Of a stretch of DNA of 64,000 nt, positions 683-23,000 are shown in pieces. The notes below the pieces were generated by a model, which was not told where the DNA came from, made no database searches, and saw nothing but the letters and a program-made list of their open reading frames with translations. Both the position numbers and the translations under genes were made by a program. Every line of letters starts with the position of its first letter. Positions within the stretch are counted from its first letter, which is position 1. Source of the stretch: Pseudomonas chlororaphis subsp. piscium (lineage in GTDB: Bacteria > Pseudomonadota > Gammaproteobacteria > Pseudomonadales > Pseudomonadaceae); contig NZ_CP027707.1 of the NCBI RefSeq assembly GCF_003850345.1, positions 248,001 through 312,000 on the forward strand, in the 5' to 3' direction.

Positions 683-2274
683 GCGTGTCTCCAGCGTGTG
701 GCGCGGGTTTCGAGCTGTTGGCCGATAAGGTTGAGCAGGGCGCCGGTGAGGCCCACCAGGAGCATGCCGGCCAGGATCAGGTCCATGCGCAGCAGCTGCT
801 GGGCGCCGATCATCTGGCTGCCGATGCCGCTGTTGGACGGCATGAAATATTCCGCGCCGATGGTTCCCAGCCAGGCGTAGATCAGGCTCAGGCGCAGCCC
901 GGCGAAGATCCCCGGCGCGGCGCCCGGCAGCACCAGGCGGTGCAGGCGTTGCCAGAGGTTCAGGCGCAGCACTTGCGCCGCCTCGGTCAGTTGCGGCGAC
1001 AGGTTGGCGACGCTGCGTTGGGTGGCGATAAACAGCGGGAAGAACGCAGCCAGCGCGACAAATACCCATTTCGCCAGCTCCCCGAGGCCGAACCAGGCGG
1101 TGAGCAGCGGCACCCAGGCGAAAATGGCGATCTGCCGGAGCGCCGCCAGGGTCGGTCCCAGAATACGTTCGCTCAGGTGCGACAGACCCAGCAGCAGGCC
1201 CAGGGCAAACCCCAGGCCGCCACCCAGCAGCAGGCCCCCGAGGGTGCGCCGCAGGCTCAGGCCCAGGCCGCCGGACAGGCTGCCGTCGAGCAGGCCGTTC
1301 CAGGTGGTTTGCAGCACCGCCAGCGGGCTCACCAGAATGTTGGCATCGACCCATTCCAACTGGTTCGCCACTTGCCACAGCGCCAGCAGGAACAGCGGTA
1401 GCAGCCAGGGTTGCAGGCGTTGCCAGCCCTGGTAGCGCGGGCCACGGCGGATCTGCGCGATGGCCGGGTGCGGCCAGTGCACCAGCGCCTTGTCCAGCAG
1501 GCCGATGCCGCGGTCCATGGCCACGCCGATCACCCCGATCACCAGGATGCAGACGAAGACGATATCCAGCATGAACAGCTGGCGCGCCCAGACCATCAGG
1601 TAGCCGATGCCTTCGCTGGAGGCCAGCAGTTCCACCGCCAGCAACGAGGTCCAGCCGGCGGCCAGGGCCAGGCGCACGCCGGCCATGAAGGCGGGCAGGG
1701 CGGCGGGCAGTATCAGCCGGCGGATCAACAGGTGCGGCGGCAGGCGCAGCACGGCGGCGGCTTCGCGCAATCTGGGCTGGGCGTCGCGCACGCCGACCAG
1801 GGTGTGCAGGGTCACCGGCACGATGATGGCCTTGACCAGGACCACCAGCTTGAGCAGTTCGCCGATGCCGAAAAACACCATGAACAGCGGGATCCAGGCC
1901 AGGGTCGGGACCTGGGCCAGGGCGGCGAAGGTCGGAAACACCAGGCGTTCCAGGCGCCGGCTGGAACCCAGTGCCGCGCCCAGCACGGCGCCGGCGCCGA
2001 TGCCCGCCAGCAGGCCCCAGGCCAGCCGTTGCAGGCTGATCGCCAGATGGCTCCACAACTCGCCGCCGGCCAGCTCGAGCGCGCTGCTCCAGACCAGCTT
2101 TGGCGCCGGCAGGATCTGCTCGCTCATCCAGGCATAACGGCTGGCCAGCCACCACAGGGCAAACAGGCTCAGGGGCAGCAGCCAGGGCAACAGCTGCCGG
2201 TGGACTCGCGGCCAGGACAGCGGCTTAGCGGAGGGCGCGGCCAACGGCAAGCTGAGAAGGGAAACACGGGCCAT
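679..2274 (-). CDS. atsB: Fused double ABC permease of a sulfate-ester uptake system (AtsB-like)
   Basis: This inner-membrane permease has 531 residues, about twice the ~250-270 of SsuC/TauC, and contains two consecutive BPD_transp_1 domains. Each domain has its own EAA loop (EAAAVLRLPPHLLIRRLILP in the first half, EAAQVLRLNLWQRLHRLVLP in the second), so one chain can supply both halves of the pore. I chose the ATG at 2274 because it has GGAGA upstream. Longer readings run back through a REP element and show its translation signature (SVGARLARD). It couples to the ATPase gene by ATGA and diverges from the binding-protein gene. A duplicated, fused permease is what I recall for AtsB of P. aeruginosa, which supports a sulfate-ester role. 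Confidence 0.85.
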   Translation of the reverse strand: MARVSLLSLPLAAPSAKPLSWPRVHRQLLPWLLPLSLFALWWLASRYAWMSEQILPAPKLVWSSALELAGGELWSHLAISLQRLAWGLLAGIGAGAVLGAALGSSRRLERLVFPTFAALAQVPTLAWIPLFMVFFGIGELLKLVVLVKAIIVPVTLHTLVGVRDAQPRLREAAAVLRLPPHLLIRRLILPAALPAFMAGVRLALAAGWTSLLAVELLASSEGIGYLMVWARQLFMLDIVFVCILVIGVIGVAMDRGIGLLDKALVHWPHPAIAQIRRGPRYQGWQRLQPWLLPLFLLALWQVANQLEWVDANILVSPLAVLQTTWNGLLDGSLSGGLGLSLRRTLGGLLLGGGLGFALGLLLGLSHLSERILGPTLAALRQIAIFAWVPLLTAWFGLGELAKWVFVALAAFFPLFIATQRSVANLSPQLTEAAQVLRLNLWQRLHRLVLPGAAPGIFAGLRLSLIYAWLGTIGAEYFMPSNSGIGSQMIGAQQLLRMDLILAGMLLVGLTGALLNLIGQQLETRATRWRHA

Positions 2275-2685
2275 GGACGATCTCCGTTGTCGGGTTGTGC
2301 TGCATCTTTTTTCTTCTGTTCTTTCTTCTTCTGTAGGAGCGAGGCTTGCCCGCGATGGCGACCTCAAGGTCGCAACAGGGCCACCACCGGCCTGCGGCCT
2401 ATCGCGGGCAAGCCTCGCTCCTACAGAATTGTTTTTGGTTATATAAAAAGTTATATCGATGCTATTGGGAGATAAGAGAGGCCATTTAAGGCCTCCAGGC
2501 ACGCTGCATCCAATGCATTTGGAGAATATTTTCGATGCTGTCCATGCATATGCCGCGCAGAGCCGCGTCCTGGCTGGTTTATTCATATTGGTTATTAAAA
2601 TGTGAACTTATAGTATTTAAAGCTTGGACCGCCTTGGGCCTACCTTCTGCTCCTCAATGCCCGTCGCAGCCAGGAGCCACACCTT
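2275..2685. promoter_or_regulatory. Divergent control region of the atsBC and atsR genes
   Basis: This 411-bp gap separates the permease operon from the binding-protein gene. It contains a REP inverted pair (2331-2426) and then an AT-rich stretch (about 2430-2625) with several ATA-rich segments suited to divergent promoters. In P. aeruginosa atsR and atsBCA belong to the CysB sulfur-starvation regulon. No exact CysB site can be defined by eye. Confidence 0.5.
2331..2426. repeat. REP pair (inverted)
   Basis: Two inverted copies of the Pseudomonas REP core (ctgtaggagcgaggcttgcc and its complement) lie at 2331-2355 and 2401-2426, separated by ~45 bp that itself contains a weak inverted repeat. 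They sit in the divergent ats intergenic region. Confidence 0.9.
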
Positions 2686-3708
2686 ATGAACCTTCCCTTC
2701 AAACGCGTCTTCAGTCTGTTCGCCGCGCCGGCCCTGGCGGGACTTCTGGGCTGCCTGCCACTGCTGGCCCAGGCGGATGAGCTCAAGCAGATCCGCATTG
2801 CCGTGCCGGACCTCAGCGCCGGTACCCAGCACAGCGGCGGCGGGGTGACGGACGTGTTGCGCCAGCAGCAGATCTTCGAAAAGGCCTTCGCCGACCAGGG
2901 CATCAGCATCCAGTGGAACTACTTCAAGGGCGCCGGCCCGGTGATCAACGAGGCCTTCGCCAACGGTCAGGTGGACCTGGCCTACCTGGGGGACCTGGCG
3001 GCGATCATCGGCAAGTCCAACGGCCTGGACACTCGCCTGCTCAGCGCCACCGCCCGTGGGGTCAAGCAGTACCTGGGAGTGGTGCCGGGGTCGGGGATCA
3101 AGACCTTGCAGGATCTCAAGGGCAAGCGGGTCGCGGTGTTCCGCGGCACGGCCACGCAGTTGTCGCTGGATGCCGCGCTGGCCAGCCAGGGCCTGAGCGA
3201 GAAGGACCTGAAGATCATCAACCTGGATTTCAACGCGGCGGTCGCGGCGCTGGCGGCGAAGCAGATCGATGCTACCTGGGGCGGTTCCAACTTGAATGCC
3301 TTGCAGGCCAAGGGCCTGGCCGAGGTGCCGCTGAACACCAAGGACCTGGGCGGCGCGGGTAGCGTGCAGGCGGTGCTGGTGGGCAGCGGCGCGTTCGTCG
3401 ACGCCCATCCCGAGGTGGTGGAGAAGCTGCTCAAGGCCCAGCAGCAGGCCGTGCAGTGGCTGACCCAGGACAGCAACAAGGACGCCTATATCGAGCTGGT
3501 GTCGGGGCTGGCCAGCTACCCGCCGGTGGTGCTGAAGCAGGACCTCAAGGATCAGCGCTTCAGCGAAATCTTCCCCTCGACCCTGGACCCGGTGTTCCTC
3601 GGCAAACTGCAGGACGCGGTGGACCTGGCCGCGCAGCAGCGGCTGATCCGCAAGCCGTTCAAGGTCAGCGAATGGGTGGCGCCGCAGTTGGCTGCCGCAG
3701 GGCTGTAA
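2686..3708 (+). CDS. atsR: Periplasmic binding protein for sulfate esters/sulfonates
   Basis: This 340-residue solute-binding protein of the SsuA/TauA/NMT1 type has an N-terminal signal peptide (hydrophobic stretch about residues 10-28, cleavage near AQA-DE). The mature part contains a two-lobe motif set: the lobe-1 FANGQVDLAYLGDLAAIIGKS segment, then LQDLKGKRVAVFRGTATQ around residues 140-160. It would deliver an organosulfur ligand to the permease-ATPase encoded divergently. The ATG at 2686 follows GGAGCC. Substrate cannot be read from sequence; the neighbouring alkylsulfatase and sulfatase favour sulfate esters (AtsR), with aliphatic sulfonates as the alternative. Confidence 0.85.
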   Translation: MNLPFKRVFSLFAAPALAGLLGCLPLLAQADELKQIRIAVPDLSAGTQHSGGGVTDVLRQQQIFEKAFADQGISIQWNYFKGAGPVINEAFANGQVDLAYLGDLAAIIGKSNGLDTRLLSATARGVKQYLGVVPGSGIKTLQDLKGKRVAVFRGTATQLSLDAALASQGLSEKDLKIINLDFNAAVAALAAKQIDATWGGSNLNALQAKGLAEVPLNTKDLGGAGSVQAVLVGSGAFVDAHPEVVEKLLKAQQQAVQWLTQDSNKDAYIELVSGLASYPPVVLKQDLKDQRFSEIFPSTLDPVFLGKLQDAVDLAAQQRLIRKPFKVSEWVAPQLAAAGL

Positions 3709-15329: not shown

Positions 15330-15557
15330 CTATGTTCCTGGGTGTTTTTCTCCCGGTATGAAACCTGCTCCATGTCCGGGTTGATAGTTATCTGGCTTCG
15401 CCTTTGAGATCTGTTCCTGTCTTTTGGCTTACCCCCGGTCAGTCGATGCTGGCAGTCGTACTGGTATTCAGTGACCAGCTTTTGCCCGGCGCCGCGGCGT
15501 CGCGGCTGAGGTTGCCGAAGGCGTCGTAGCGGTATTTGCATTGGTTGCCGTTGAAAG
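15326..15557 (-). pseudogene. Rhs core remnant 1, almost completely deleted
   Basis: About 100 bp of rhs core (15432-15557) is homologous to the tyrosine-rich region of the full-length rhs (KYRYDAFGNLSR ... GAGQKLVTEYQYDCQHRL). A one-base deletion in the string cgccgcggcgtcgcgg near 15500, compared with the other two copies, shifts the frame. The frame then runs into an unrelated 37-residue tail ending at 15326. The conserved DPLGL junction and most of a toxin tip are missing. It abuts the first copy of the 91-aa-ORF module on one side and an immunity-like ORF on the other. Confidence 0.8.
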
Positions 15558-15616
15558 ATCAGCGCAGTTCGTCACGCTGCGCTAATAGGGCATTGCTGAT
15601 TTTTTAAAGAACGGGT

Positions 15617-15892
15617 TTAAGCGTTCAGGACTTGATCCTGCAATCTGCGGCCGATGACGTCCATCAGGTCGCAACCATCACGGAGTGGGATAACGATCAC
15701 CCGCGACAAATCTTGTAGCAGTAGCGGGTCGTTGTTGAAGTTTTCGGTTAGAGAAATTGTTTCAAGTAGTTGGGTGACGCATCGAATGCGATATGCGGCG
15801 GTGTCATGCAGCACGTCCACAGGTGCCTGAGTATCAATCAGTAGCGAGGGAAAATTGTTGTCGATGCCGGTGATAGGCATGTATCGATTCAT
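15617..15892 (-). CDS. 91-aa conserved protein, copy 1 (DUF3077-like?)
   Basis: The 91-residue acidic protein has a strong ribosome-binding site (AAAGGAGCTCC) before the ATG at 15892. It is nearly identical to the protein at 18758-19033 (start MNRYMPITGIDNN versus MSRYMPITGIDNN; both end RRLQDQVLNA). The helical middle (APVDVLHDTAAYRIRCVTQL) resembles the small Pseudomonas DUF3077-type proteins, but I am not certain of that family. It is preceded by the structured leader at 15932-16018 and always lies at an rhs truncation here. Function unknown. Confidence 0.7.
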   Translation of the reverse strand: MNRYMPITGIDNNFPSLLIDTQAPVDVLHDTAAYRIRCVTQLLETISLTENFNNDPLLLQDLSRVIVIPLRDGCDLMDVIGRRLQDQVLNA

Positions 15893-15931
15893 GATGGAGC
15901 TCCTTTAGCAATTCGATGAACTGCCTTCTCA

Positions 15932-16018
15932 CTTCCACATGAGGGTGGCAGCTGTGCGCGGGTGTGGAAGACCGGGGCTAAAGGAACCCGGCGCACCCGA
16001 AGGTGCCCCGCGCACAGC
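15932..16018 (-). ncRNA. Candidate structured leader RNA upstream of the 91-aa ORF, copy 1
   Basis: A 12-bp perfect stem (15951-15962 with 16007-16018, GCTGTGCGCGGG/CCCGCGCACAGC) interleaves with an 8-bp stem (15932-15939 with 15963-15970, CTTCCACA/TGTGGAAG). An inner GCACC-CGAA-GGTGC hairpin lies at 15993-16006. The order of arms implies a pseudoknot or two mutually exclusive folds. In copy 2 the long stem keeps full pairing although several bases changed. It ends 40 nt before the start codon. Confidence 0.6.
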
Positions 16019-16111
16019 GGCCGCAACACAATAATGTAGGAACAGAAGAATGCCTACATTTGTTTTGGGACGCTTTAGCGCCTTTAGCTATAGAGCGGAC
16101 TTCCACATCCG

Positions 16112-16131
16112 ATCGCTGATTTCGCAGCGAT
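16112..16131 (-). other. Conserved hairpin upstream of the leader, copy 1
   Basis: ATCGCTG/CAGCGAT with a 6-base loop, preceded by a second CTTCCACA (16100-16107). The same arrangement is at 19229-19262. It may belong to the promoter region or be another part of the RNA. Confidence 0.45.
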
Positions 16132-16199
16132 TTGAAGATGCTATCTAGACGGACGCTATGGTACAAGTTGACGGAAGTCGATATCCCTGTAGGGGGATT

Positions 16200-16409
16200 C
16201 TGTATAAGTTGTAGGGGAATTCTAATGAATAATAATGAAATAGTTGCTCATAAAGATGTGGAGAAATCAAGGATGTACTGAGTAGCGACTCAGGATACTA
16301 AGGCCCAACCCCAATGGACTCGCCCACCCGTAGAACTAGGCCCGTACTGATAGTCGTTAAACTTTGATTTCTATGTAGTGGCAGCCACAAGAAGAATTGT
16401 TTTTATGGA
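16200..16409. other. Intergenic segment without recognisable gene
   Basis: About 210 bp between the end of the 209-aa ORF and module copy 1. It includes a short string similar to the end of rhs core (ctcgcccacccgtagaactaggcccgtactgatagt, resembling the GWVDPLG region, around 16320-16355), perhaps a further rhs scrap. Confidence 0.35.
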
Positions 16410-17039
16410 TTATGATTTTAGGTAAATGTTGTAGCCTTTGTCTAATTCGGATTTAGTATGGTTCTTTATCACCTCTATATCAAAAAGCGTTGCAGGTGTT
16501 GATGATGTTTTGTTTTTTATTTCTTGATTGGCTTTTTCTATTTCGTGGGTAAGGTCTGTGTAGGAGTCTATAATTATTGAGTCGTTGGTAGAGTAAGTTA
16601 ATTTTATCTTTTTGGAGGTTATAAGGCATAGTTTTATGCTGATATCTGGATTGAATAAGAGTCTTCCTCCTATGTCATAAATTTTGTCGTTGTTTTGAAG
16701 TTCTCTCCCCCAGCTACTTTGCGTTGTATGCTTGCTGTCTCCGGTTTGTATTGAGATCTCCGACTCCAGCCTGTCTAACCCTTCAAATTCAATAAGCGCG
16801 CTTTTCACCAGGATGAAGCCGTCACTTATAATGTTTTCAGGGATTGCTGAAGAAGCTTGATTCGTTAATTGTTCTATTATTGGGTCGTCAATTGTGTTGA
16901 GGATGAAGTTTGTTATTTTTATTTTTGGTGTCTCGTAGAATTTTTCAGTTAATGCCACATCTAGATAGCTTATAAGCCCTCCAGCATTGTCATAGTCTAT
17001 AGCGCCAAATGCTTCCTCTATGTTAAGTGTTATTTTCAT
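16410..17039 (-). CDS. Putative immunity protein of the methyltransferase-like Rhs tip (209 aa)
   Basis: The soluble acidic protein of 209 residues starts 2 bp after the stop of the truncated rhs tip (17042), the classic effector-immunity spacing. It is AT-rich and unlike core genes in codon use. Beta-rich segments alternate with acidic loops (IKITNFILNTIDD, EGLDRLESEISIQTGD, RLLFNPDISIKLCLITSKKIKL). I recognise no known immunity family. Its function as antidote to the adjacent tip is inferred from position. Confidence 0.65.
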   Translation of the reverse strand: MKITLNIEEAFGAIDYDNAGGLISYLDVALTEKFYETPKIKITNFILNTIDDPIIEQLTNQASSAIPENIISDGFILVKSALIEFEGLDRLESEISIQTGDSKHTTQSSWGRELQNNDKIYDIGGRLLFNPDISIKLCLITSKKIKLTYSTNDSIIIDSYTDLTHEIEKANQEIKNKTSSTPATLFDIEVIKNHTKSELDKGYNIYLKS

Positions 17040-17041
17040 TG

Positions 17042-18668
17042 TTAATCTGCTCTCTTAATGACAAATTGATCAAGCTGCCTGGATTGAATGTCTCGCCCGT
17101 CAACAGTCTTAAATCCTTGAGTTGATATTTTTTCATGGGAAACAATTTTCAATCCAAGTGATTCAATTCTCTTGATCGCCTTTTTTAAATAACCATTTGC
17201 GTTGGCGCTGCCTGTTAAAGTTATTTGGCCATCTTTCGATAGGACTCTCAATATTTCCGGGTTTAATGGATCATAGCCATAGGGGTTATCAATATTGATC
17301 CGGCTTTGGGAACCATCTTTGATTCCCGACAAATTGGTTGCATCACCAGCATGTACACCAGGGACCTTTGGATCAATGTCCAGGTTATAATAACCCTCTA
17401 AAGGATTTGTACCTGCTCCAATATTTAACGAGCCATTTGCATCTGCTGGCTTAGGACACTCCCCAGTCAACCCCAACGGATCCACCCACCCCGTAGGATT
17501 AGGCACATACTGGTAGTTATTCAACCCACCCGCCAGCTTGACTGGGTCCGGGGTCAAAAACCGTCCAGAGTTCGGATTGTAGTAGCGATGACGGTTGTAG
17601 TGCAGCCCGGTTTCCGTATCGAAATACTGCCCCTGAAAGCGCAGCGGGTTGTCGATTTCGGACACGTCCAGCGCTGCTAGATTGCCATACGCCCGGTACT
17701 TGGCCGACCACATGATCTCGCCGCTGTAGGCGGTCAATTCCTGCGGCGTGCCAAGGTGGTCGAGCTGGTAGTAGAACGGCGTAGCCTGGGCCGGGCCTTC
17801 GCCATCGAGCATGGCCAGGGGACGAAAGGTGCCGGGTTCGTAGATGTAAGTGCGATAGCGATTTTCAGCGCTCTCGGCGATCAGCCGTTCGCCTTGCCAC
17901 AGGAACTCGGTAGTACGGCCATCGACAGTTTTGGCAATGCGGCGGCCGAAGGCGTCGTACTTGTAGGTGGCAGTGCTTCCGCCCGGCAAGCTGACGCCGA
18001 TCAGGCGGTGCTGGCAGTCGTATTGGTATTCGGTGACCAGTTTCTGACCGGCGCCGCGGCGTTCGCGGCTGAGGTTGCCGAAGGCGTCGTAGTCGTAGTG
18101 ACGGTCGCCTTGCATCAGCAGGCGGTTACCTTTGACGTTGGCCAGGTTGGCGGCGGGCTGGTCACCCTGGCCGAGCAGGTTGCCGGCCGGGTCGTGGGCG
18201 AAGCTCTCTGGTGTGGCACCCCGTACGTTGATCAGGCGATCCAGCGGGTCGTAGTGATAACGCAGGTTGCCCTTGCGGCTGTCGTCGATGCCGGCGAGGT
18301 TGCCGTTGGCGTCGTAGGCATAGGCGCGGCGGTAGAGGTTGTGCTGCTGGCCGTGCTGTTGCTGGCTGACGCTGTGGGCCTGCAGGCGGCCTTGATCGTC
18401 GTACTGGTACTGGCTGAGCAGCAGGCCCTGTTGGCGCTGCTGTTCGCGGCCGGCGTTGAACTGGTGGCTGGTCAGGCGCGAGCCGTTGAGGTCGATGCTG
18501 CTGAGCTGGCCGCCAGGGGCATGGCGGTAGTCGAGGTTGCTGCCATCGGGCAGGCGGCAATGGCTGAGCTGGCCGAGCTTGTCGTATTCGTAGCGCAGGG
18601 TGCCCCAGCCCTGGTGTTCGGTAATCAGGCGGTCTTGCAGGTCGTATTCGTAGGCCAGCGGCCGTCGT
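17042..18668 (-). pseudogene. 5'-truncated rhs (orphan tip) with methyltransferase-like C-terminal domain
   Basis: The rhs core from 18660 down to 17478 is colinear with 21674-20492 of the full-length rhs, with no net indel. The N-terminal two thirds are missing, cut at a junction with module copy 2, and no proper start codon exists (first in-frame ATG at 18115). After the conserved PTGWVDPLGL junction the 141-residue tip differs completely from that of the main rhs. The tip contains LNIGAGTNPLEGYYNLDID, GDATNLSG, NIDNPYGYDP and EILRVLSKDGQITLTGS. These fit motifs I, II, IV and post-IV of class I S-adenosylmethionine methyltransferases. It is probably silent in this position but usable as a donor for tip exchange. 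Confidence 0.75.
17478..18660. repeat. 1.18-kb direct repeat of rhs core, copy A
   Basis: Matches 20492-21674 at a constant offset of 3014 bp with scattered substitutions only. It spans core repeats and the DPLGL junction; homology stops at the tip. Confidence 0.9.
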
Positions 18669-18757
18669 AGCGGATTTTTCGTTGGCCGCCGTCGGAAGAT
18701 CAGCGCAGTTCGCCACTCTGCGCTGATAAGGCATTGCTGATTTTTTAAAGAACGGAT

Positions 18758-19033
18758 TTAAGCGTTCAGAACCTGATCCTGCAATCTACGGCCGATGACA
18801 TCCATCAGGTCGCAGCCGTCGCGGAGTGGGATGACGATCACTCGCGACAAATCTTGTAGCAGTAGCGGGTCTCTGCTGATGTTTTCTGTTAGAGAAATCG
18901 TTTCAAGTAGCTGGGTTACACATCGGATGCGGTATGCGGCGGTGTCATGCAGCACATCGATGGGGGCCTGTGTGTCGATCAGCAGCGAAGGAAAGTTGTT
19001 GTCGATTCCTGTGATGGGCATGTAGCGAGACAT
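18758..19033 (-). CDS. 91-aa conserved protein, copy 2 (DUF3077-like?)
   Basis: Ninety-one residues, nearly identical to the copy at 15617-15892; differences are mainly conservative (VDVLHD/IDVLHD, ENFNNDP/ENISRDP). The ATG at 19033 has AGGAAGA upstream; longer readings run through the structured leader and are rejected. Purifying selection is suggested because both copies keep an open frame and the same termini. It is located between SUKH-type immunity gene and truncated rhs. Function unknown; family assignment tentative. Confidence 0.7.
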   Translation of the reverse strand: MSRYMPITGIDNNFPSLLIDTQAPIDVLHDTAAYRIRCVTQLLETISLTENISRDPLLLQDLSRVIVIPLRDGCDLMDVIGRRLQDQVLNA

Positions 19034-19074
19034 AGATGATCTTCCTGGGTCAGTTTCAGAAACTGCCTGCATCA

Positions 19075-19162
19075 CTTCCACATGAGGGGTGGCAGTTGTA
19101 CACGGGTGTGGAAGACCGAGGATCCAAGAACCCGGCGCACCCGAAAGTGCCCCGTGTACAAC
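19075..19162 (-). ncRNA. Candidate structured leader RNA upstream of the 91-aa ORF, copy 2
   Basis: Same topology as copy 1. The long stem is GTTGTACACGGG (19095-19106) with CCCGTGTACAAC (19151-19162), and the interleaved stem is CTTCCACA (19075-19082) with TGTGGAAG (19107-19114). Relative to copy 1 three base pairs of the long stem change on both sides, keeping Watson-Crick pairing. The stem's inner hairpin is GCAC/GTGC. Confidence 0.6.
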
Positions 19163-19335
19163 CGCCATAATTTAAAAGCATGTAAAAAGCATGCTCAATG
19201 GAGGTTCTTTGACTTGGATCTCAAAGGGCTTCCACACCCTTATCGCTGATTTTTGCAGCGATCTGAAGATCCTATCTGGGTAAAGGGTGGGCTACAAGCT
19301 GGCGGAAGTCGATGTGATCTGTAGGAAAATTCTCT

Positions 19336-19504
19336 AAAAATACTAACAGAAAATTATCTTGCGTTTGGCTAATAGACAAGTGCTGTTTTGGTTTTGCTAC
19401 TGTGCATTTGAGGGGCTTTATAAATCACCCCTCTCCCCCAAAATTATCAATTTCTTGTCGCGTAGAAGGCACGCCAATAGTTGGGATATTTTATTTCGTA
19501 ATTT
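19336..19504. other. Intergenic AT-rich segment
   Basis: Between module copy 2 and the end of the SUKH-like gene. It holds no open frame or clear hairpin that I can support. Confidence 0.35.
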
Positions 19505-20023
19505 TTAAAAGTTGAATTCGGCGCTGACTATTCCGTCGTCGTCATTTTTTGAGTTGTTTTCTTCATTGTCAGGTACGAGGTGTTCAAAGAAATTAGTAAA
19601 GGATGGAGCAATTAGGAAAAGTGAAGATGCATCATCTTTCGCTTCGTGATACCAGTAATATACTTCTTCCGTTTTTTTGCTAATGCAAAATTGATCTCCT
19701 CCCCCTGACTCTCCAAATGTATAAAAATCACCGCTTATTTGGTTTGAGTACATTTCATTTTTATAGTAGATGTTGTTTGAGTCTTGGTTTAGTCCGTAGA
19801 TTATATCTAGGAATACGAAGCCGTTTCTGTCGCCGATAGGCATCTTTTTAGGGGTTTTGAATTTTGCACCATTTGAGAAAACTATGGCTGTTTTGAACTT
19901 TTTTAGAAGTTTCTTCAGATCTTCTGAAATTTCGCTACCATCCTGCAAGCTATTGCGGGACTGTTTTGTCTCGAAGGACATTGACTCGGCACCGAGCTCA
20001 TTTAAAACCTTGTCATATGACAT
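19505..20023 (-). CDS. SUKH (SMI1/KNR4)-like immunity protein
   Basis: This 172-residue soluble protein would neutralise the HNH-like tip of the upstream Rhs protein in the cytoplasm. The middle and C-terminal parts carry the SUKH pattern: NGFVFLDIIYGLN, then GDFYTFGESGGGDQFCISKKTEEVYYWYHE and SLFLIAPSFTNFFEHL. It begins 2 bp after the rhs stop, as expected for a toxin-immunity pair, and is much more AT-rich than the rhs core. SUKH immunity proteins are often paired with HNH-superfamily nuclease toxins, which fits. The exact SUKH subgroup is not determined. Confidence 0.75.
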   Translation of the reverse strand: MSYDKVLNELGAESMSFETKQSRNSLQDGSEISEDLKKLLKKFKTAIVFSNGAKFKTPKKMPIGDRNGFVFLDIIYGLNQDSNNIYYKNEMYSNQISGDFYTFGESGGGDQFCISKKTEEVYYWYHEAKDDASSLFLIAPSFTNFFEHLVPDNEENNSKNDDDGIVSAEFNF

Positions 20024-20025
20024 AT

Positions 20026-23000
20026 TTAATTCCTCATGTCCGAGGCAGAGCCAATATGGGGGATATTTCCATGTAGGCCTGACGGGATCAGCTGTATGGT
20101 CTCTTTATCAAGATGGTGTGGTGTGAGCCCAGCCTTTCGTAATAATAGTCTAGCTGCATTGGCGCTTCTTAGATTTTTTTCTTTTTTTAGTCTTTCATAA
20201 ACTTTTTTGAAATCTTGATCTGTACCATCTAGTACGCCAGGCTTGAATTTAACAGTACCTTTTGACCACTGTGAAAAGTCGGGGCGACCATTGATGAAAG
20301 GAATAGGCTGTCCTTTGGTTACTTCGTTTACCTCAGGAATATCAGAATACCAAGGACTTTCTCCTGGCTTCCCCTTCCCATCTGTCCCCCAGCGACCTTG
20401 GTTCCTCGGAAGTCGCGTACGGGAATTCTGACCTGTCTCCAGCGTTTGGGATTTGCCCCCAGTTGCTCCTGGGCACTCATCTAGACCTAATGGATCCACC
20501 CAACCCGTTGGGTTATGCACATATCTGTAGTTGTTCAACCCCCCCGCCAGCTTGATCGGGTCCGGCGTCAAGAACCGTCCCGAGCTTGGATTGTAGTAGC
20601 GATGACGGTTGTAGTGCAGCCCGGTTTCCGTGTCGAAGTATTGACCCTGGAAACGCAGCGGGTTATCGATTTCGGAGATGTCCAGCGCGGCCAGATTGCC
20701 GTATGCCCGGTACTTGGCGGACCACATGATCTCGCCGCTATAGGCGGTCAGTTCCTGTGGCGTGCCCAGATGGTCGAGCTGGTAGTAGAACGGTGTGGCC
20801 TGGGCCGGGCCCTCGCCATCGAGCATGGCCAGCGGGCGGAAGGTGCCGGGTTCGTAGAGGTAGGTGCGATAGCGATTTTCAGCGCTCTCAGCGATCAGTC
20901 GTTCGCCTTGCCAGAGGAACTCGGTGGTGCGGCCATCGACGGTCTTGGCGATGCGGCGGCCGAAGGCATCATACTTGTAGGTCGCGGTACTGCCACCCGG
21001 CAGGCTGACACCGATCAGGCGGTGCTGGCAGTCGTATTGGTATTCGGTGACCAGCTTCTGGCCTGCGCCGCGGCGTTCGCGGCTGAGATTACCGAAAGCG
21101 TCGTAGTCGTAATGACGGTCGCCCTGCATCAGCAGGCGGTTACCTTTGACGTTGGCCAGGTTGGCCGCAGGTTGATCGCCTTGACCGAGCAGGTTACCGG
21201 CTGGGTCGTGGGCGAAGCTTTCTGGGGTGGCACCCCGTACGTTGATCAACCGATCCAGCGGGTCGTAGTGATAACGCAGGTTGCCCTTGCGGCTGTCGTC
21301 TATGCCGGCCAGGTTGCCGTTGGCGTCGTAGGCATAGGCGCGGCGGTAGAGGTTGTGCTGTTGGCCGTGCTGTTGCTGGCTGACGCTGTGGGCCTGCAGG
21401 CGGCCTTGATCGTCGTACTGGTACTGGCTGAGCAGCAGGCCCTGTTGGCGCTGCTGTTCGCGGCCGGCGTTGAACTGGTGGCTGGTCAGGCGCGAGCCGT
21501 TGAGGTCGATGCTGCTGAGCTGGCCGCCAGGGGCATGGCGGTAGTCGAGGTTGCTGCCATCGGGCAGGCGGCAATGGCTGAGCTGGCCGAGCTTGTCGTA
21601 TTCGTAGCGCAGGGTGCCCCAGCCCTGGTGTTCGGTGACCAGGCGGTCTTGCAGGTCGTATTCGTAGGCCAGCGGCCAGTGGCCGTCGTCGACATTGACC
21701 AGACGCCCGAGGGCGTCGTAGCTGTAGTGAATTTCTTCGCCATCGGCCAGGGTTTTCACCAGCAGGCGGCCAGCGGCATCGCGCTGGTATTCGGTGACCA
21801 GTTCGCTGCCGTCGTCGCCGAATTCGGTTTTCTTCAGCAGGTTGCCGTTGAGGTCGTAGGCGTAGGCGGTGCTGCGCCCGTCGAAACCGGTTTCCTGCTG
21901 GATCAGGCCGTTGGGGTAGTAGTCCAGGTGGTACTGCTCGCCGCGCTCGTTTTCGATATCGGTCAGCAGCAGGCGTGCGTTGTCGTAGCGATAATGCAAC
22001 TGGCTGCCGTCCGGGTTGATGCGGCGGCTGACCAGGTGCAGGTTGTCGGCGTATTCGTAGCGGGTGATGCGGCCCAGTTCGTCACGCTCGGCGGTGACTT
22101 TGCCGTAGGCGTTGTAGCTGAAGGCCCGGGTCGCGCCGCCGGGCAGGGTGATCTGCGCCAGGCGGTTGGCGGCGTCCCACTGGTACTGGGTGATGGCGCC
22201 GCTCTCGTCCTGGCGGGTGATCTGCCGGCCCAGGGCGTCGTAGCGGTACTTACGTTGGCCACCGTCTGGCAGGCGTTCCTCCAGCAGTTGGCCGAGACCG
22301 TTCCAGCCCAGTTGATGGCGGCTGCCGTCGGGGTGGCTGATTTCTAGCAGGCGACCCTGGCGGTCGTAGCGGTAGTGGGTTTCGTTGCCGTGTGGGTCGG
22401 TTTGCTGGGTTATGTCGCCCTGGAGGTTGCGCTGGTATTTCCAGGTGGCCTTGCCGCGACGTACCACCCGTACGAAACCGTTGTGGTGCTGGTAGGTGGT
22501 CGGTTCGTCTTCGGGAGGGATGATTGCGACCAGGCGCCCGGCTTCGTTGTACTGATATTCGGTGATGGCGCCGAGCGGGTCTTTCTCGGCGATCAGCCGA
22601 CCTTTTTCATCGTAGGCATTTTGTGTTTCTGCGCCGTCAGGGTCGGTCTGGCTGACCAGTCGTGCATTTTCGTCATGTACGTAAACCTGCTCGCTGCCAT
22701 CGACGTTGATGACAGTGACTGTGCCTTGGTCGTCCCACACATACCGGGAATCGATTTGCGAAAGGTTGGACCACTGGCGGATACAGCGGGCCGCCTTGCC
22801 TTCGCGCTCCCACTCCCAGAAAAAGCTCGCACCACCGGCCAGTTGGCGTTGCTGAATGACATGCTGCTCGTCATAGCGATAGCGTTCGATTTCACCCACG
22901 GCATTGGTGGCGCTGATCAGTTGATTGCGCTCGTTGTATTGGTAGCTGACCAGGGTCTGTACCGTCAGCCAGGGCTCCTGACGTTCACCTCGTTCGTCGT

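Follow-up and report, generated by a model that had tools for sequence, protein, structure and literature searches.

In the 64,000-nucleotide stretch of the Pseudomonas chlororaphis subsp. piscium chromosome analyzed here (the window), two minus-strand open reading frames (ORFs) of 91 amino acids (aa) are each preceded by a leader in which a long stem and a second, shorter stem occur in interleaved order, as the original prediction, made from the sequence alone, had described. The long stem is GCTGTGCGCGGG...CCCGCGCACAGC in the leader of the first ORF (copy 1) and GTTGTACACGGG...CCCGTGTACAAC in that of the second (copy 2). Comparison pair by pair bore out the three compensated positions claimed for it: both sides have changed with pairing kept at 3 of 17 pairs (7, 11, and 13), and copy 1 contains two mismatches (pairs 1 and 5). 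The interleaved pair CTTCCACA/TGTGGAAG is the same in both copies, and TGTGGAAG lies at 15932-15939 and 19075-19082, with the start codons about 40 nucleotides (nt) further on, at 15892 and 19033, in agreement with the earlier description. Further in-frame starts exist upstream of 19033 in copy 2, and the start was set there because a Shine-Dalgarno-like sequence precedes it. The two units, 15522-16207 and 18663-19339, are a duplication of 78% identity among repeated Rhs pieces.

A search of Rfam matched both leaders to the C4 antisense RNA (RF01695) over the full length of the model, with 73.3 bits for copy 1 and 76.4 bits for copy 2 against a cut-off of 45, ruling out the new RNA family without known match that had been proposed. 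Judged by this match, the long stem corresponds to stem P1 of C4, and the interleaved stem is the pairing of the antisense a' with its target a2 ahead of the 91-aa ORF. In C4 RNAs as published, a' determines which target is bound, b' lies over the ribosome-binding site, and RNase P generates the 5' end (PMC5320573, accessible part). In both copies, GG is present where RNase P would cut, at the 5' end of stem P1, and a' matches the downstream a2 over 8 nt. The interleaving is thus real, but the pseudoknot or mutually exclusive cis folds formerly deduced from it need not be assumed, because interleaving is the known C4 arrangement, with the antisense facing a target just downstream; such folds may still form in the unprocessed transcript. 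The antisense-target nature of this pairing had been missed, together with the upstream target sequences a1 and b1 and the pair b'/b2, in which b' of copy 1 is complementary to the ribosome-binding site over 9 nt covering the Shine-Dalgarno sequence, while the pair is weak in copy 2. A structured RNA with covariation far beyond the two copies was found in 85 C4 loci, comprising 25 from the genome of the window (the home genome) and 60 from elsewhere in the genus, the latter hand-picked from about 150 best-scoring genus matches and leaning to the model consensus for that reason. Pairing in stem P1 was held in 1422 of 1445 cells, and shuffling of the 3' letters reached at most 1338 (1000 shuffles, relatedness ignored). 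The features of both units are collected in Table 1.

Table 1 Positions of the elements of the two C4 units in the window.
Feature	Position	Strand	Basis
Copy 1 promoter-like TTGTAC-N17-TAGCAT	16138..16166	-	pattern scan upstream of a1 (locus L019)
Copy 1 a1/b1 region, c4-a1b1-like (RF03163)	16092..16144	-	41.9 bits, below cut-off
Copy 1 a1 (TGTGGAAG)	16100..16107	-	sequence
Copy 1 b1 (GCTAAAGG)	16081..16088	-	sequence
Copy 1 C4 antisense RNA	15941..16028	-	73.3 bits to RF01695, whole model (1-87 of 87)
Copy 1 a' antisense (CTTCCACA)	15963..15970	-	sequence
Copy 1 b' antisense, P3 loop (TCCTTTAGC)	15977..15985	-	complement match and duplex energy
Copy 1 a2 target	15932..15939	-	sequence
Copy 1 b2 target GCTAAAGGA, overlapping Shine-Dalgarno AGGAG	15901..15909	-	complement match
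Copy 1 91-aa ORF (F91 family, without Pfam match)	15617..15892	-	ORF list, homologue search
Copy 2 promoter-like TTGTAG-N17-TAGGAT	19269..19297	-	pattern scan upstream of a1 (locus L015)
Copy 2 a1/b1 region, RF03163-like	19221..19275	-	36.7 bits, below cut-off
Copy 2 a1 (TGTGGAAG)	19229..19236	-	sequence
Copy 2 b1 (GATCCAAG)	19213..19220	-	sequence
Copy 2 C4 antisense RNA	19085..19172	-	76.4 bits to RF01695, whole model (1-87 of 87)
Copy 2 a' antisense (CTTCCACA)	19107..19114	-	sequence
Copy 2 b' antisense (CTTGGATC)	19121..19128	-	complement match
Copy 2 a2 target	19075..19082	-	sequence
Copy 2 b2 target, weak, CCAGGAA	19042..19048	-	7 pairs including one G-U, by eye
Copy 2 91-aa ORF	18758..19033	-	ORF list, Pfam search

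The address of each C4, consisting of a' and b', was compared with its targets as the longest exact complement between the C4 loops and the own or other loci, using 24 of the 25 home-genome loci with the decayed L020 omitted. These exact loop-match lengths replaced noisy duplex energies that included stem bases, a switch made after the energy result. A match of at least 7 nt to the own a2 was present in 23/24 loci, as against 3.6% of other pairs, and to the own b2 in 17/24, as against 2.7%; the upstream targets gave 19/24 for a1 (other pairs 3.1%) and 13/24 for b1 (3.6%). The own a2 and b2 together were strictly best in 20/24 loci, and none of 20000 permutations equalled the observed mean for a1, a2, b1, or b2 (relatedness ignored). 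The 60 loci from other genomes behaved similarly, with own matches in 56/60 for a2, 45/60 for b2, 39/60 for a1, and 33/60 for b1, and with 11.2, 6.5, 5.4, and 4.7% of other pairs, respectively. Own targets were also matched in 46 distinct 91-aa loci (a2 46/46, b2 31/46) and in 27 DUF3077 loci (a2 24/27, b2 15/27); 44% of other pairs in the 91-aa set match in a2 too, because many orthologues share one address. Across 84 loci, 32 different a-strings were counted, some of them overlapping. In the paralogous pairs L008/L010 and L001/L005, a' is common and b' is different, each b' matching its own b2. In P. chlororaphis PCL1601, where a 98%-identical relative of the copy 1 91-aa gene lies in a similar Rhs setting, TTGACAG replaces TGTGGAAG at all three sites, a1, a', and a2. 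The b' of copy 1 forms a duplex of -19.0 kcal/mol with its own target and of -7.3 kcal/mol with that of copy 2. Copies 1 and 2 and L021 share a', and partial cross-talk among them is therefore possible. None of 552 cross pairs in the home genome matched in both a and b. Since about 0.5 would be expected by chance (0.036 x 0.027 x 552) if a and b are independent, the zero count does not indicate that orthogonality has been selected for, and a selected avoidance of cross-talk is unsupported.

Signals of a common transcript were found around the C4 units. The pattern TTGnnn-N16-18-TAnnnT lies directly upstream of a1 in 74 of the 81 loci with a findable a1, where 1.3 would be expected from mononucleotide shuffles; a stricter consensus scan of the window listed neither copy's promoter-like site. 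Runs of at least four T occur between b1 and C4 in 59/81 loci. The b2 match is at least 6 nt in 71 of 84 loci, and where a start with a Shine-Dalgarno sequence could be called (62 loci), b2 overlaps that sequence in 59. In several loci, a short ORF within the leader continues into the start codon of the main gene, an arrangement resembling icd-ant in phage P1.

The family, the fold, the matching to own targets, the position of b2 on the Shine-Dalgarno sequence, and the common promoter pattern are all read directly from the DNA. Seen from them, each copy is very probably a C4 antisense switch of the phage P1 immI type, placed ahead of the 91-aa gene on one transcript and blocking translation of its own gene, and the proposal that the leader RNA controls the 91-aa gene is most likely right. 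We infer processing, repression, and a decoy role as follows. A single promoter would give an RNA in the order a1-b1, C4, a2-b2, and ORF, and the C4 part would fold into three stems, P1, P2 with a tetraloop, and P3, and probably be excised by RNase P, like known C4 RNAs. Then a' would pair with a2 and b' with b2 on the Shine-Dalgarno sequence, so that translation of the ORF would be blocked. The upstream target copy a1/b1 could also bind C4 and would probably serve as a decoy or activator, an idea that draws on the role of IsrK in Gifsy-1 and on weak upstream matches to isrK (RF01394) in the two copies (30.5 and 23.3 bits in a permissive search, under the cut-off of 50). With 25 units in the genome and an address matched to the target at each locus, each C4 would mainly silence its own gene. 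Were the stems instead to act in cis alone, as a pseudoknot or as mutually exclusive leader folds of a riboswitch or attenuator, the interleaving of a' and a2 on one transcript and the intrinsic T-runs ahead of C4 in those 59 loci would be accounted for, but the third matching copy upstream, a1 and b1, would be left unexplained, and the family matched by the leaders consists, in phages, of antisense RNAs (RF01695; PMC5320573, accessible part); we regard this alternative as unlikely.

The genes behind C4 fall into a few families. Among the 85 loci, the first gene after C4 was of the DUF3077/DUF6124 type in 45, a phage-type short ORF (52-57 aa) in 15, a member of the 91-aa family in 12, and Bro-N in 7 (one broken, and none in the home genome). 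The remaining 6 comprise QslA operons at L009 and L128, a DUF3077 gene further downstream at L113, a contig end at L120, the decayed L020, and a broken 91-aa relative at L023. Pfam searches with example genes gave DUF3077 at 1.2e-31, DUF6124 at 3e-21, Bro-N at 3e-10, and QslA at 3.5e-9 and 8e-23, and the Bro-N piece additionally matches phage anti-repressor Ant families. Behind the C4s of the window, where an immI region of the phage P1 type would have an antirepressor gene, the genes belong to the 91-aa family. In L087, L092, L093, L094, L098, and L104, the end codons of the short phage-type ORF form the Shine-Dalgarno sequence of an overlapping gene that follows (GGAG/GGGGGTGC...ATG), and this arrangement makes translational coupling of the two likely. 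The N-terminal MKK(L/V)VPDPP is common to the 91-aa-family protein of L024 and the DUF6124-type proteins of L011, L014, L021, and L025, which otherwise do not match, as if the start region and the RNA leader had moved jointly.

Searches that started from the proteins also led to C4. In the home genome, 12 of 13 DUF3077 matches lie directly behind C4, and the sole DUF3077/DUF6124 gene without C4 adjoins a PrrF small RNA (RF00444, 170.1 bits; L141:1501-1689 and 1812-1960). DUF3077 was found in 45 of the 59 genomes of the genus sample, and 27 of 29 fetched loci had a same-strand C4 upstream, scored with a model (R1) built from the home-genome C4s; the 5 of 59 genomes without C4 contained no DUF3077, and the rank correlation between C4 and DUF3077 counts was 0.68. 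For the 91-aa family, 80 of 442 loci were taken, from named genomes that are all Pseudomonas, and C4 lies upstream in 49 of them; the distance is about 50 nt in roughly 23, and in many others a further ORF lies in between; 11 of the 18 family genes of the home genome are behind C4. QslA gave 12 matches in 9/59 genomes, 8 of them with C4 upstream (L145, L149, L150, L151, L153, L154, L155, and L156), and the radC RNA motif (RF01754) is also present in three of these eight loci. Searches of the open-access literature gave a single paper for DUF3077, on furfural tolerance (PMC9630843, accessible part), and nothing for DUF6124.

The 91-aa protein itself has no Pfam match, and the named organisms among its best 120 homologues are all Pseudomonas. 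Its predicted structure consists of a beta-hairpin and a helical hairpin (57 sequences; predicted local distance difference test score (pLDDT) 92.0, predicted template modelling score (pTM) 0.81), and the prediction for DUF3077 has the same order of elements with a pLDDT of 76.0. VIA-align returned generic helical matches only. Reasoning from QslA, Ant, and Icd, we guess that the 91-aa protein might be a small regulator-binding protein.

Several observations weigh against the proposed switch. In copy 2, the longest exact match between b' and b2 is 4 nt, and the duplex with the own target (-11.0 kcal/mol) is close to that with the copy 1 target (-10.0 kcal/mol). The duplex-energy test with stem bases placed the own target first in only 6/24 loci, the mean still being better than in all 20000 permutations. 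The c4-a1b1 scores of both copies (41.9 and 36.7 bits in a permissive search) fall below the RF03163 cut-off of 46.7, despite the presence of the a1 and b1 sequences themselves, and a consensus scan of the window recognised no terminator between b1 and C4. In addition, C4 is missing upstream of 31/80 relatives of the 91-aa gene and from the neighbourhood of 7/18 family genes of the home genome (L167-L174), where an unfiltered search reached 17.6 bits at best. Such paralogues without a C4 of their own, the multiple copies, and the variable a' would fit a scheme in which the C4s are orphan small RNAs with main targets elsewhere, as proposed for 21 Group 1 RNAs of Acinetobacter baumannii (PMC5320573, accessible part). 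The matching of own-locus a2 and b2 far above chance and the direct upstream position of C4 in protein-first searches speak against that scheme, which we hold to be very unlikely.

C4 RNAs are abundant well beyond the window. The home genome (7.07 Mb) contains 25 above the cut-off, and in the genus sample, which includes it, 53/59 genomes contain C4 above the cut-off, with 1011 matches in total, a median of 17, a maximum of 54, and at least 10 in 37 genomes. In the wider family, 66/99 sampled genomes have C4; a recount of the table gave 59/89 for genomes of other genera, the highest copy number being 24, so an expansion confined to the genus is too narrow a description. At the class level, C4 was found in 18/274 genomes including the home genome, with 15 candidates scored per genome, so that the home genome showed 15 of its 25. 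One 1.5-Mb genome of the class (G319, contig C9) contains 6 C4 matches, four of them in a tandem array at 1700-3092, some about 350 nt apart. C4 in Pseudomonadales had already been predicted in 2010 (Weinberg et al., via the accessible part of PMC5320573). In the open-access literature searched, we found no account of the multi-copy scale in Pseudomonas with locus-matched addresses. Within that literature, the scale, the locus-by-locus addresses, and the association of C4 with DUF3077/DUF6124 genes, the 91-aa family, and operons containing QslA are new, the RNA family itself being known.

Phage relatives of these units exist. Pseudomonas phage phiAH14b (KU708005) contains, in order, a C4 (89 bits), an isrK-like stretch (48.8 bits, below cut-off), and the short phage-type ORF, and the IMG/VR locus L232 has C4, a short ORF, and then Bro-N, which is the order of phage P1. 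Among the IMG/VR matches listed, at least 45 C4 loci contain a DUF3077/DUF6124-type ORF (73 of 80 parsed, 7 not parsable). DUF3077 matches a PHROG (1e-14); one DUF3077 protein gave no tblastn match among phages and one among plasmids, and the 91-aa protein gave none in the phage or plasmid collections. The DUF3077/DUF6124-type families thus occur in phage-derived DNA too, and the units may lie in prophage DNA. In the window, the Rhs stretches 17472-18663 and 20486-21677 share 92.6% identity, the copy 2 C4 unit starts exactly at the end of the former (18663), and a SUKH-type gene (PF09346) lies between them; 19505-20023 was noted together with these stretches. Although phiAH14b, the decayed L020, and the broken gene of L023 would suit neutral prophage debris, with C4 units copied around and having no present function, this is hardly credible in view of the compensated changes at a1/a'/a2 and of b' with b2, the covariation in stem P1, the promoter pattern in 74/81 loci, and the abundance across the genus.

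The recurrence of C4 antisense switches with locus-matched guides suggests a large RNA control network with private addresses. Provided that address matching has the same meaning as in phage P1, a single bacterial chromosome would contain about two dozen antisense switches that share a fold and are largely orthogonal to one another. They would form a natural collection of programmable repressors of translation and a case of a phage immunity RNA put to use for host genes; this would also give a handle on the DUF3077 and DUF6124 families. A further RNA layer may lie above QslA-type genes, a QslA protein of P. aeruginosa being an anti-activator of quorum sensing (PMC5767178, accessible part). In its widest form, we offer the idea only as a doubtful conjecture: Pseudomonas and its relatives would have a genome-wide, barcode-addressed antisense network of dozens of domesticated phage immunity switches in each cell, each acting on its own small regulator gene (DUF3077/DUF6124, 91-aa, or QslA) with addresses changing faster than proteins, and RNA of an invading phage with the same address could titrate the resident C4 and so spring the switch, making these loci sensors of phage immunity RNA. 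The data do not bear out the sensor step: a phage-type C4 matched a chromosomal target in both a and b in only 1/1351 pairs, and the reverse was seen in 2/1351, though in a small sample.

The closest known system is C4 of phages P1 and P7 (RF01695), which is alike in fold, in a' and b', in having targets both upstream (a1/b1) and at the ribosome-binding site (a2/b2), and in a small protein encoded first downstream (icd in phage P1); here, in contrast, the units are chromosomal and multi-copy, precede the 91-aa family or, elsewhere, DUF3077/DUF6124 genes or QslA operons, and vary in address within one genome. The c4-a1b1 element (RF03163) is alike in upstream position and content and differs in that the window copies score below its cut-off. 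In Salmonella Gifsy-1, a short terminated RNA, IsrK, activates a silent read-through mRNA with a processed RNA downstream, and the IsrK/STnc1160/orf45-anrP system shares with the switch proposed for the window one promoter, a short upstream RNA, a processed RNA, and a translationally silent small ORF (PMC4825925, accessible part); the window scores under the isrK cut-off, and an activator role of its upstream RNA would hold by analogy. The CI RNA of phage P4, with seqA and seqC, likewise places an antisense RNA between two target copies, but leads to transcription termination, whereas the target here is on the Shine-Dalgarno sequence (PMC4825925, accessible part). The Group 1 small RNAs of A. 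baumannii are chromosomal, multi-copy (21), and C4-like with a variable a'; no targets are assigned to them in the accessible part of PMC5320573, whereas here a matched target and gene lie directly downstream. The C4 units of Pseudomonas could thus provide a concrete model for the Acinetobacter C4-like RNAs, whose targets would be sought directly downstream.

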